DNA of 64,000 bases from assembly GCA_030550235.1 (NCBI GenBank), contig JAUQPU010000001.1, forward strand, positions 317,068-381,067. The letters run 5' to 3'. A program made the position numbers and the translations under genes. The notes beneath the pieces were generated by a model. The model did no database searches. It had not been told where the DNA came from and saw nothing but the letters and a program-made list of their open reading frames with translations. The first letter of the stretch is position 1. Every line of letters begins with the position of its first letter. This DNA comes from Thermoproteota archaeon (GTDB taxonomy: Archaea > Thermoproteota > Nitrososphaeria_A > Caldarchaeales > Calditenuaceae). Positions 38,511 through 43,673 of the stretch are shown here, in pieces.

Positions 38511-39785
38511 TTATTGTCTGCCGTAGCCCTTCAGCAAACCTGCTACGCCACCGAAGGTTTTGAGGAACATTTCTCCCGACTCATGTTTCGACGAGACGAG
38601 CTCAACCTCTGTGCCCGCCTCCTCAGCTTCCTTTATGAGTATCTCGACGAGTTTCTCCTGTCTGTTTAGCTTAAAGCCCTGAACACCGCATTTAGGGCAT
38701 TTCTCGGAGAGTTTCTGGGGTAGCTGGGTGACTAGATCACCTTCGCTCAGCATCTCGGTGACCTCGTATCCACAGTTGGAGCAACTGTAACCTACCTGGA
38801 CCAGGTCTAGTTCTTCACTTATGACGAGTAACTCCAGCTGCTTTCCCCGCAGGGCCTGCCTCACAGAGTCCAGACCATAGACTACAGTATTCTGTGTCGT
38901 AACCCTCCTCATTAAATCATCAACAAGCCTCCTCTCCTTCACCAGCCTGAGATTGGCCAACATGTCGGCCGCCCTGTCTATGGCCTCCCTCACACCCTCC
39001 TCGCCAGCATAAGACGTATCAATCAGATGTATCTTGTCGCGGAAGGTGTAGTGTAGCTTCCCCTCCTTAAGAAAGATCTCCTTAGTGGGGCCAGGCCCTG
39101 CAATGATTATCACTTTGAGATCGGGGTAGCTTAGAAAGATCTCGTTGGCATGCTCGGCAATTCGCGAATAGTAATCTTGGAGTGCTTGCTCCCTTAACCT
39201 TTCAAACCTCCTAGACGACTGCCCTCCGGCACGATGTTTACCCGGGATTCCGCTCGTATATGTTCTAAGCTCAATCATCATCTTTCCCCTGAAAACTGCG
39301 ATAGCCGCATCCTCGTTATCCATCGCGATTATGCCATAGGTCTCACGCTCCTTTAACAGCTCTTTCAGGGGTTCGAGATAGAACTTAGAGTCGCATCTGT
39401 AGAGGAAGAAGTTGATTGGCTCAGGCGGATGCAGGTGGTAGACCTCTATCTTCTCAGTCCCCTCCCCATTCTGAGGTATAGCGCCGCTGAAGACGATAAG
39501 TCCGTTTGGTCCACTGTCCTTGAAGAGCTTGAGCCTCTGAATTGCACTCTCTATTGCGTCCATCACCGCCTTCCTAGTCCCTTTAGACTTAATGTTGGAG
39601 GCTGTTGAGAGCTCCTGCCTCAGGTATCCTATAACCTCGTCTATCCTCTTCCCAGGCGGAATATAGAGCGTTACCAGCTCCGTTCCACGACCTTGTCGGG
39701 AATCCAGAAATTCTATGAACCGCCTGAACTTGAACCTCTCTACGCTATTCCATTCAGCTATTCCATTCTCAGTCCCAGACCATAT
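38511..39785 (-). CDS. prf1: Peptide chain release factor aRF1 (coding frame open to 39785; start codon non-canonical or frameshifted)
   Basis: Called ORF plus 73 in-frame upstream codons: ...WNSVERFKFRRFIEFLDSRQGRGTELVTLYIPPGKRIDEVIGYLRQELSTASNIKSKGTRKA|VMDAIESAIQRLK. NIKS motif present; GGQSSRRFERLREQ is the GGQ motif. Confidence 0.9.
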   Translation of the reverse strand: MWSGTENGIAEWNSVERFKFRRFIEFLDSRQGRGTELVTLYIPPGKRIDEVIGYLRQELSTASNIKSKGTRKAVMDAIESAIQRLKLFKDSGPNGLIVFSGAIPQNGEGTEKIEVYHLHPPEPINFFLYRCDSKFYLEPLKELLKERETYGIIAMDNEDAAIAVFRGKMMIELRTYTSGIPGKHRAGGQSSRRFERLREQALQDYYSRIAEHANEIFLSYPDLKVIIIAGPGPTKEIFLKEGKLHYTFRDKIHLIDTSYAGEEGVREAIDRAADMLANLRLVKERRLVDDLMRRVTTQNTVVYGLDSVRQALRGKQLELLVISEELDLVQVGYSCSNCGYEVTEMLSEGDLVTQLPQKLSEKCPKCGVQGFKLNRQEKLVEILIKEAEEAGTEVELVSSKHESGEMFLKTFGGVAGLLKGYGRQ

Positions 39786-39881
39786 TCATCTGGGCTGAAT
39801 TTAACTATTAATTTTAGGTATTATATCGGCTGCGAGGCGGCGCAGTTTTAATTAAGGGGGAGGGATTCGGTTTTAAGTGAT

Positions 39882-40619: not shown

Positions 40620-41654
40620 GTGAAGATTGCCGTCGCGGGCGGCGGTGTTTCGGGAAGTTTCTTTGCCTCCCTAGTTGAGAACACCCAGGACGTGACCGTT
40701 TTTGAAAGGCAGAGGGAGAACGTCTTTAGGGCAATCTGCGCCTGGGGAACAAGCAAGCATGAGATGAGGCGTCTAGCTGTACGTATAGGGCTAAACTTTG
40801 ACGAATATATCCTTCACGAGGGGAGGGAAATGGTTGTCAAGCTCCCAGACAATGAATTCTCCATCAAGCTCAAGGGCCTCTGCACATTTGATAAAAAGAG
40901 ATTCATACTAGACATGCATAAGAGGTTGAAGATAAAATACAGCTTTGACGTCAAGAAGGAAATGCTCAATGGTTTTGATATTGTCGTCGACGCTACCGGA
41001 TTCCATAGGGCTCTTCTACCTAGAATAGCCCGCGATTACTACATCCCAACTGTAGAGTATCTTGTCGAGTATAGTAGCCCGCCCTTTGACGACTTTTATC
41101 TGATGCCGTTAACACACCTCGGTGGTTACTTGTGGTATTTCCCCCTTTCTAAAAATCGCGCTCATGTTGGTGTAGGTGACTATTTCTGCAGGCATAGAGA
41201 GGCGTTAGACGAGTTCGTCAGAAAATACTCCGGCGAGATAATAGACGTTGTTGGGCGCCCTGTCAGGATTGCTCCACCTCACCTCTGCACCCCCATAGCT
41301 ATTGATGGTGTGGTTGGGCTTGGGGAGAGTATTGGTGCCGTCCACCCGGTGATTGGTGAGGGAATTATCCCTGGGATGCAGTGTGCAGAGATACTAGCCG
41401 AGAGCCTCGAGGCTGGGTTAGACCAATACCCCTCAAAGGTGTTGAGACACTTCTCAGTGTTCTACTACATTTTCCAGTTTATCAAAAAGGTCCATAACTC
41501 TACTTTCAGCTATCTCCGAGACTTTAGGCTTCTCCTATCGCCTTTTATATACATGAAATTTAGGGAGGATAGGTTTGGAATGGAGATCAGGCTGAGAGAT
41601 TGGCTTAAGATTGTCACGGCATATCGTAGAGGGCGTGCCTCCACTAAAATATGA
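40620..41654 (+). CDS. Geranylgeranyl reductase-family FAD-dependent oxidoreductase
   Basis: IAVAGGGVSGSFFASLVE (GxGxxG); GLGESIGAVHPVIGEGIIPGMQCAEILAESL. Confidence 0.85.
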   Translation: MKIAVAGGGVSGSFFASLVENTQDVTVFERQRENVFRAICAWGTSKHEMRRLAVRIGLNFDEYILHEGREMVVKLPDNEFSIKLKGLCTFDKKRFILDMHKRLKIKYSFDVKKEMLNGFDIVVDATGFHRALLPRIARDYYIPTVEYLVEYSSPPFDDFYLMPLTHLGGYLWYFPLSKNRAHVGVGDYFCRHREALDEFVRKYSGEIIDVVGRPVRIAPPHLCTPIAIDGVVGLGESIGAVHPVIGEGIIPGMQCAEILAESLEAGLDQYPSKVLRHFSVFYYIFQFIKKVHNSTFSYLRDFRLLLSPFIYMKFREDRFGMEIRLRDWLKIVTAYRRGRASTKI

Positions 41655-42630
41655 GGACATATCCATTAATCCTATGAGCCCTTTGGAGGAGGATAAAGGC
41701 TCCGTGGATAGGGCCCCTGTCAAGGACTATACAGTCTCGGCGGATACGAGGATTCGGAGTCTTGTGGAGAGTTTTGCGGAGTCAGGTGGATTCATGGCCA
41801 GCTACCTCGCTGAGGGCTGTAGGATATTAAGGGAGATGGTCGGCGACCGAGAGTGTTTAAGGTGGTTGTCCTTTGTAGGCTCCATTACCGCTACTGGTTT
41901 AAGGGGTGTCTTGGCCCGCATAGTAAGGAGTGGCATCTTCAGATACATTGTGACGACTTGCGGGACGATAGACCATGACATAGCGAGAAGTTTGAACAGC
42001 TATTATAGGGGGGCGTTCGAGCTGGATGACAGCAAACTCCGAAGCATAGGGATACACCGTGTGGGCTCTGTAGTTGTGCCTGAGAAAAACTATGGCCTTG
42101 CTATAGAACGCTTTATGCTCAACCTTCTTGATGAGCTGTACAATAAGGGTGTGAGGGAGATCGGTAGTATTGAGCTGACGAGGGAGATTGGAAGGAGGCT
42201 CACGGAGGGCTCCATACTCAGGGCTGCCGCTGACGCAGGCGTTGACGTCGTCGTGCCAGGCGTGATGGATGGGGCGGCTGGGACCCAGCTCTGGATATTC
42301 CACACAACCCACCGGGACTTCCATCTAAACCTCTTCAGAGACTACGACCATCTATCAGAGACACTGTTCAAGCGGGTTAGGAGGGGTGGCCTCATAATTG
42401 GGGGAGGAATTAGCAAGCACCATCTTCTCTGGCTCAACCAGTTTGGAGGCGGACTGGACTATGCTGTTTACGTGACTACAGGGAATGAATGGGATGGGAG
42501 CCTGACTGGCGCTCCACTTCGAGAGGCTATTAGTTGGGGAAAGCTCAAAACCTCAGCCAGAAAAGTCACCATATATGGTGACGCTACAATAATCCTGCCA
42601 ATACTCGCCGCATCAATTCTTGAAGTCTAG
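41611..42630 (+). CDS. Deoxyhypusine synthase family protein (paralog 1)
   Basis: YIVTTCGTIDHDIARSL, PGVMDGAAGTQLW, IIGGGISKHHLLW, NEWDGSLTGAPLREAISWGKL (catalytic Lys). Start uncertain. Confidence 0.9.
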   Translation: MSRHIVEGVPPLKYEDISINPMSPLEEDKGSVDRAPVKDYTVSADTRIRSLVESFAESGGFMASYLAEGCRILREMVGDRECLRWLSFVGSITATGLRGVLARIVRSGIFRYIVTTCGTIDHDIARSLNSYYRGAFELDDSKLRSIGIHRVGSVVVPEKNYGLAIERFMLNLLDELYNKGVREIGSIELTREIGRRLTEGSILRAAADAGVDVVVPGVMDGAAGTQLWIFHTTHRDFHLNLFRDYDHLSETLFKRVRRGGLIIGGGISKHHLLWLNQFGGGLDYAVYVTTGNEWDGSLTGAPLREAISWGKLKTSARKVTIYGDATIILPILAASILEV

Positions 42631-43673
42631 GCCTCGCCGAATACCCAGCCCAGATCAGGCGGCTCCCTCCTCTGCCCCAGTTTTTCGTAGAGGGCGTGCG
42701 CCACAAGTGGCAAGGCGATGGTTGCATCGCAGAAACACTGGACAGTCATGCTCTCCGGCCCTTCCTTCCCCCAGCTCTTCGCTTCCTCTAGCGTCGCTCC
42801 TGACAATCCACCCCAATGGGGGTTGTCCGTCGTGATCTGAGCCGCAAATTTGTGGGGGCTTGTCTTGAAGAGGTCGCCTGAGGTCAAGACGGCTACTGCC
42901 ACAGCAGCTAGCTGTATAAAGTCTTTAGGAACTCCACCTCCTATGAATATAGCTGCGCTGTCGGTAAACCTGGACTTTATCCTAACCATTAACTCGTAGT
43001 CTAGGAAGTGGTCTATGAGTAGTCTGAAGCTGGCTCCATGGCGATACCTGTTGAGAAGATAGGCGATACCCATCCCAGAGTCGACTAGCGCGGGTGAGAA
43101 GACCGGTACCCCGCTTCTCCACGCTTCTGTGAGAATGCCATTAACGCCCTTCCCATCAAGCCATCCTCCTAGACGGTTTAGGAATCCCGCCGAAGAATAG
43201 GCCTTGCTATGGTCGATCTCTGCCATGAAGTCAGCCAGCATATTCTCCATCCTTACATAATCTCTCTCTCTAACAAACACATCATGGAATCTGTAGATGC
43301 CCGCTTTTTTCAGCTCTACATCATCGAGGTTTGGATCACCTATGTAGTATTTTGCTCCTAGAGCCTCGATCAAGTCCTCAGTAATGTTTGCTGGGGTCGA
43401 GACTAAGACATCGATGAACCTATTCTTTATGAGCCACTTTATAATCTCAGACTGGCCTGTGGTGCTGAGTGAGCCTGCCAGCCCGAGGAATATCACAGTA
43501 TTTTTAGAGTTGCATGCCGCCTCCCAAACCTTTACAACCTCTCCGAGCCTACGCCCCTGAAAGCCTGTCAGAGCCATTGAGTCGAGCAACTGGCTTATCT
43601 TCTTATCATCAATCTTTATCGACTTGAGCTCCCTTGTCAGAAACCTCTCCGCGTGTTCCACCATCTTATCCAT
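42627..43673 (-). CDS. Deoxyhypusine synthase family protein (paralog 2)
   Basis: FLGLAGSLSTTGQSEIIKWLI, VSTPANITEDLIEALGAKYYIG, IFIGGGVPKDFI, WGGLSGATLEEAKSWGKE (catalytic Lys). Confidence 0.9.
   Translation of the reverse strand: MDKMVEHAERFLTRELKSIKIDDKKISQLLDSMALTGFQGRRLGEVVKVWEAACNSKNTVIFLGLAGSLSTTGQSEIIKWLIKNRFIDVLVSTPANITEDLIEALGAKYYIGDPNLDDVELKKAGIYRFHDVFVRERDYVRMENMLADFMAEIDHSKAYSSAGFLNRLGGWLDGKGVNGILTEAWRSGVPVFSPALVDSGMGIAYLLNRYRHGASFRLLIDHFLDYELMVRIKSRFTDSAAIFIGGGVPKDFIQLAAVAVAVLTSGDLFKTSPHKFAAQITTDNPHWGGLSGATLEEAKSWGKEGPESMTVQCFCDATIALPLVAHALYEKLGQRREPPDLGWVFGEA

Follow-up and report, generated by a model that had tools for sequence, protein, structure and literature searches.

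Locus and Reading Frame

The window analyzed here, a stretch of 64,000 nucleotides from a genome in the Calditenuaceae (Aigarchaeota), carries on its minus strand a gene for the archaeal class-I release factor aRF1 (Table 1). Read from 39761, the product scores 460 bits against TIGR03676 (aRF1_eRF1; cutoff 234.7) and matches all three eRF1 Pfam domains, eRF1_1, eRF1_2, and eRF1_3 (PF03463, PF03464, and PF03465). The translation contains both motifs of the class-I release factors, NIKS within TASNIKSKG and GGQ within AGGQSSRRF. Comparison with solved structures yields archaeal and eukaryotic matches, the best being 4af1_A (E 5.6e-77). The gene is intact, and it is single copy in this multi-contig draft genome; a search for a second copy found none.

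The reading frame, followed base by base, occupies 38511..39785 (-) and is open upstream as far as a TGA at 39788..39786. Its first canonical codon (ATG, GTG, or TTG) is codon 73 of this open frame, the GTG at 39566 that a mechanical ORF caller selects as the start. This GTG lies downstream of the NIKS motif, which is required for stop-codon recognition by eRF1 and aRF1. The original prediction held that the upstream extension encodes the eRF1 N-domain with its NIKS motif and must be translated, and that the frame offers no usable canonical start; the family model and domain matches confirm the former, and the base-by-base reading the latter. Because the first ATG, GTG, or TTG falls beyond NIKS, aRF1 either starts at another codon or is entered from another frame.

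Two other observations concern the surroundings of the gene. The start of an L10e-like ribosomal protein on the plus strand of the window is probably TTG 37031, not the ATG 36836 of the ORF caller. Two putative deoxyhypusine synthase-like genes, so named from their sequences, lie at 41611..42630 (+) and 42627..43673 (-); they are convergent, and their ends overlap.

Table 1. Features of the aRF1 locus (window coordinates) and other genes whose conserved N-termini lack a canonical start
Feature	Location	Strand	Remarks
aRF1 coding sequence, read from ATA	38511..39761	-	416 codons plus stop
NIKS motif, N-domain	39585..39596	-	From the translation; upstream of the ORF caller's GTG
Mini-ORF AUG-GAA-UAG, out of frame	39758..39766	-	Invariant in six species; UAG overlaps AUA by two bases
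Proposed aRF1 start codon ATA	39759..39761	-	ATA in 6/6 species; aligns with the sister-genus ATG start
Inferred 5′ leader GGGACTGAGAATGGA	39762..39776	-	Conservation begins abruptly at GGG
ATG AAT ATG GTC TGG GAC TGA	39769..39789	-	Most likely promoter DNA plus leader; not conserved
aRF1 promoter TATA element GTTAAATT	39798..39805	-	Invariant in six genus members
MetRS	G000:C8:195140-196822 (L056); G005:C139:601378-603057 (L097)		N-terminus without ATG/GTG/TTG
purF-like	G000:C8:203938-206022 (L057); G005:C139:611601-613685 (L097)		No canonical start near the N-terminus
cofD-like	G000:C8:403041-403979 (L064); G005:C139:806262-807209 (L107)		ATC/ATT or ATA start
rpoL-like	G005:C139:247548-247868 (L079)		CTG behind GGTGG-N6, three genus members
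spt4-like	G005:C139 near 517995 (L092)		CTG in G005, TTG in G000

Comparison with Relatives

The genus is represented by the window and by five further aRF1 loci, L002, L003, L004, L006, and L013 (genomes G005, G004, G002, G003, and G001, respectively). A usable canonical start is absent from all six. In five aRF1 loci from other genera of the Calditenuaceae (L023-L027), the column that holds the genus-invariant ATA is occupied by ATG, and the N-terminal sequence M-S-K-R-D-S-V of the sister genera aligns with I-A-K/E-W-x-S-V/L of this genus (for example, I-A-K-W-D-S-V). ATG or TTG is also found near this column in loci from other families of the order. A near-cognate codon thus stands at the homologous start position throughout the genus, and ATG in the family loci outside it.

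The six loci have in common the block GGGACTGAGAATGGAATAGC, which in L004 takes the form GGGATTGGGAATGGAATAGC. Five genus members each contain its 14-mer GAGAATGGAATAGC once, the sixth has a version that differs by one base, and none of the 56 other genomes searched contains it. The shared 14-mer, together with ATA in all members of the genus and ATG in its sister genera, places the loss of the ATG at the base of the genus. No in-frame canonical start codon lies between the GGG of this block and the ATA in any of the six species. In L013, where the sequence preceding GGG is AACGTGATTT, an in-frame TGA stands 3 nt (one codon) before GGG, so that ATA is the only near-AUG codon there. ATA 39761 had been mentioned earlier merely as a passing candidate; its alignment with the sister-genus ATG makes initiation at AUA the favored reading.

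Promoter and Predicted Leader

Apart from TTAAAT, contained within GTTAAATT, no upstream element is shared by the six genus members; the TATA-like element named in the original prediction is not the conserved one. In every species 25-27 nt separate the center of TTAAAT from the invariant GGG downstream, and the intervening sequence drifts. Archaeal transcription begins about 25-27 nt after the TATA center, and a scan of these genomes shows a peak of TATA-like hexamers 26-37 nt upstream of start codons. From this spacing and the genome-wide peak we infer that the transcript starts at GGG, at about 39776, and would carry a leader of about 15 nt. The distance from the TATA center is 35-37 nt for AUG 39766 and 40-42 nt for AUA. 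No clear Shine-Dalgarno (SD) sequence is present in the leader, as judged against an assumed anti-SD sequence, since the 16S 3′ end was not found in the surveyed stretches. The leader has no shared fold; its best Rfam match, 'pan', scores 23.2 bits, below the gathering score of 36.2, and was taken as chance.

Conservation of the leader is far above that of neutral sites. Across the six species 13 of its 15 sites are invariant, and the other two differ in single species: GGG, AAT, GGA, and the following ATA never change, and ACT and GAG are each altered in one species only. G000 and G005 agree throughout the 15 nt that precede ATA (15/15), a score reached by only 3 of 225 intergenic start regions. 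In the coding body, by comparison, where the amino acid is identical in all six species, the codon is invariant in 34 of 133 two- or three-fold columns and in just 2 of 106 four-fold columns. The block therefore appears to be an initiation region rather than free coding sequence. The alanine codon that directly follows ATA varies freely among GCT, GCC, GCA, and GCG, and strict constraint thus stops at the proposed start. Nor is the invariant AATGGA before ATA an ordinary spacer, since the equivalent six nucleotides before the start of MetRS vary freely between species.

Other Apparent Non-canonical Starts in the Lineage

Start codons were surveyed in 446 kb of G000, 1.2 Mb of G005, and about 1.2 Mb of G006; G000 and G005 were compared with G006, a member of a sister genus, in 276 and 683 tested pairs, with gene names assigned by sequence reading. 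Shadow ORFs and rRNA dominated the first scans for missing starts, and the only genes retained, by manual selection, were those that showed homology in independent genomes. A small set of genes lacks a canonical start at a conserved N-terminus: MetRS, purF, cofD, rpoL, and, in G005, spt4 (Table 1). In the genus and in G006, MetRS carries GGTGA-N6-CTC; members of family f4, and likewise G007, have GGTGR-N6 followed by CTA or CTC. The arrangement of CTC (CTA in family f4) six nucleotides after GGTGA or GGTGG recurs in 12 genomes of the order, plus G000. For purF the pattern is GGTGA-N6-CTG in G000, G005, and G006. In cofD, GGTGA-N6 is followed by ATC or ATT and then by ATA, which overlaps the TAA of the upstream gene in G000 and G005; the corresponding position in the sister-genus genome G009 reads TTG-ATG. 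Canonical starts in G005 and G006 likewise most often have a spacing of six nucleotides.

The lineage thus seems, from these alignments, to use near-cognate and even CUC or CUA start codons in a few genes, and their occurrence at conserved N-termini suggests that relaxed use of start codons is habitual in the lineage. The aRF1 gene stands apart from the others in its AUA, its short leader, and its lack of an SD sequence.

A small gene at G005:C139:40888-41460 (L069) may be noted separately. Its start aligns with a CTG, which the TGA of the upstream gene overlaps as CTGA, and AGTGA lies six nucleotides upstream.

Proposed Initiation at AUA

On balance, the comparative evidence suggests that translation of aRF1 probably starts at AUA 39761..39759. 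The ancestral ATG would have changed to ATA in the ancestor of the genus, and a short-leader mRNA with its 5′ end near 39776 would initiate at the AUA, presumably read by the ordinary CAU initiator tRNA. The two genomes examined each carry a normal initiator tRNA with anticodon CAU. An unusual initiator was sought, and the CAU species proved to be the sole initiator-like tRNA in the searched parts of both genomes; a Lys tRNA fits the same loose anticodon-stem pattern. A weak start might serve to keep aRF1 output low or tunable. If a rare AUA start has indeed been kept across the genus, weak initiation is probably useful there.

Several observations weigh against an AUA start. Most of the other non-canonical starts follow GGTGA or GGTGG by six nucleotides, but the leader of aRF1 has no clear SD sequence. 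According to a review of archaeal initiation (PMC7531240), leadered mRNAs without an SD sequence were untranslated in a Saccharolobus cell-free system. In addition, its distance from the TATA center places the AUA at the far edge of the usual range, and AUG 39766 fits better. The start codons given in the same review are AUG, GUG, and UUG, and a literature search of incomplete coverage turned up no paper that deals with archaeal AUA starts. Among 61,358 ancestral AUG starts surveyed, two changed to CUG, one changed to AUU, and none is listed as having changed to AUA (PMC5622118). Those switches resemble that proposed for aRF1 in that ATG is replaced by another start codon inside a genus, but the aRF1 switch is fixed genus-wide in an essential gene.

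Alternative Explanations

The original prediction proposed entry from another frame by a prfB-like +1 frameshift at GAC-UGA-G, which would join ATG 39789 to the aRF1 frame and give the N-terminus MNMVWDENGIAEW. ATG 39789 is indeed out of frame and runs to the UGA as described, and the window sequence permits the shift. Such a shift is nevertheless very improbable, because the five other species of the genus all lack the arrangement of ATG 39789 and UGA 39771; when the 5′ regions of the relatives are aligned, the UGA with its offset frame is not conserved across the genus. L013 has only TGA TTT ahead of the GGG block, and the nearby ATG of L002 is in frame. The conserved promoter, moreover, places the start downstream: the center of TTAAAT is only 12 nt upstream of ATG 39789, which, given a transcript start at 39776, would lie in promoter DNA. 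As had been recognized, no slippery codon or internal SD stimulator is evident on reading the sequence 5′ of the UGA. It is scarcely credible, too, that an assembly or sequencing indel masks an ordinary ATG start. The window does come from a multi-contig draft, but GGG...AATGGAATAGC is the same in six genomes that were assembled separately, and in no case does an in-frame ATG reappear at the start site. Their agreement on the block excludes an assembly error, and the suggestion of one extra G in the GGG run fails because GGG is present in all six.

The species might instead use starts of their own: an upstream in-frame ATG, a downstream GTG or TTG at the position of DSV, or near-cognates elsewhere. 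In-frame upstream ATGs do occur in L002 and L004, and GTG or TTG is found at the DSV position in L002, L003, L004, and L013. This patchwork is improbable, however, in that the window and L006 have GTA at the DSV position, the window lacks any canonical start upstream of NIKS, and the ATGs of L002 and L004 lie upstream of the predicted transcription start.

The invariance of AUG-GAA-UAG over the AUA raises the possibility of a switch that senses aRF1 itself. Ribosomes would start at AUG 39766, translate GAA, and bring UAG into the A site. They might then terminate and restart at the overlapping AUA; alternatively, when aRF1 is scarce, tRNA-Glu might slip -1 from GAA to GGA, so that AUA-GCN would be read in the aRF1 frame and the protein would begin MEIAEW. 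Either reinitiation or slippage, in delivering ribosomes to the aRF1 frame, would make expression dependent on aRF1. This reading, the main rival of AUA initiation, is tentative and on the unlikely side, although the evidence in its favor is of several kinds. AUG 39766 is the only AUG of the leader and stands at a typical distance from the TATA element, and the AATGGA before the AUA is held invariant whereas its MetRS counterpart is free to vary. The stop overlaps the restart codon (A-UAG) in all six species with the same -4 nt geometry as the most frequent type of junction between genes in these genomes (70 cases: 33 ATGA, 28 TTGA, and 9 GTGA), and archaeal termination-reinitiation at ATGA/TGATG overlaps is documented (PMC6728339). 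In aRF1, however, the ribosomes would come from a mini-ORF of two codons and restart at AUA. Against such a switch, the entire leader is conserved, not the AUG alone; the UAG follows automatically from ATA and an alanine GCN, so that only the AUG needs explaining, and an ATG at -5, seen at 26 of 1331 starts, is not unusual. A slippery heptamer and a shared fold are both absent, and reinitiation alone would produce positive rather than negative feedback. We regard as doubtful the proposal that AUG-GAA-UAG over AUA constitutes an archaeal aRF1-sensing switch, whether slow termination at UAG leads to a -1 slip or ribosomes restart at AUA.

Relation to Known Systems

The bacterial gene for RF2, prfB, undergoes a programmed +1 frameshift at UGA (PMC12421855). 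Both genes encode class-I release factors, and in each a stop codon beside the start region could sense the factor; in aRF1, however, the frame has no internal in-frame stop, the conserved overlapping UAG lies in another frame, and the shift would be -1. A -1 slip at UAG, if it occurs, would parallel prfB autoregulation in logic. The earlier suggestion that aRF1 regulates its own synthesis has lost its basis in a UGA frameshift, and the idea is kept as a hypothesis founded on the conserved AUG-GAA-UAG overlap. To our knowledge, there is no earlier case of translational autoregulation of an archaeal release factor. The term aRF1 is absent from a review of archaeal recoding (PMC8211752), in whose consulted passages no release-factor case is described.

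The favored reading, initiation at AUA, finds a close likeness in a different system. The infC gene of E. coli starts with AUU and is autoregulated by IF3. It is likewise a translation-factor gene whose conserved, inefficient start codon could tune its own output. The aRF1 gene differs in that it specifies an archaeal release factor that acts at termination, not in start-codon proofreading, and has AUA rather than AUU; its autoregulation is hypothetical.

Implications

If the AUA is the start codon, a gene that is both essential and single copy has retained one of the rarest start codons while an archaeal genus diversified. Conserved non-canonical starts occur in central genes of these organisms, as exemplified by the CUC or CUA of MetRS in two families of the order, and ordinary gene callers truncate such genes. 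Together, aRF1 and the other non-canonical starts make start-codon fidelity in the Aigarchaeota directly testable. Use of the mini-ORF would make the aRF1 leader part of an archaeal release-factor feedback loop comparable in logic to that of bacterial prfB.
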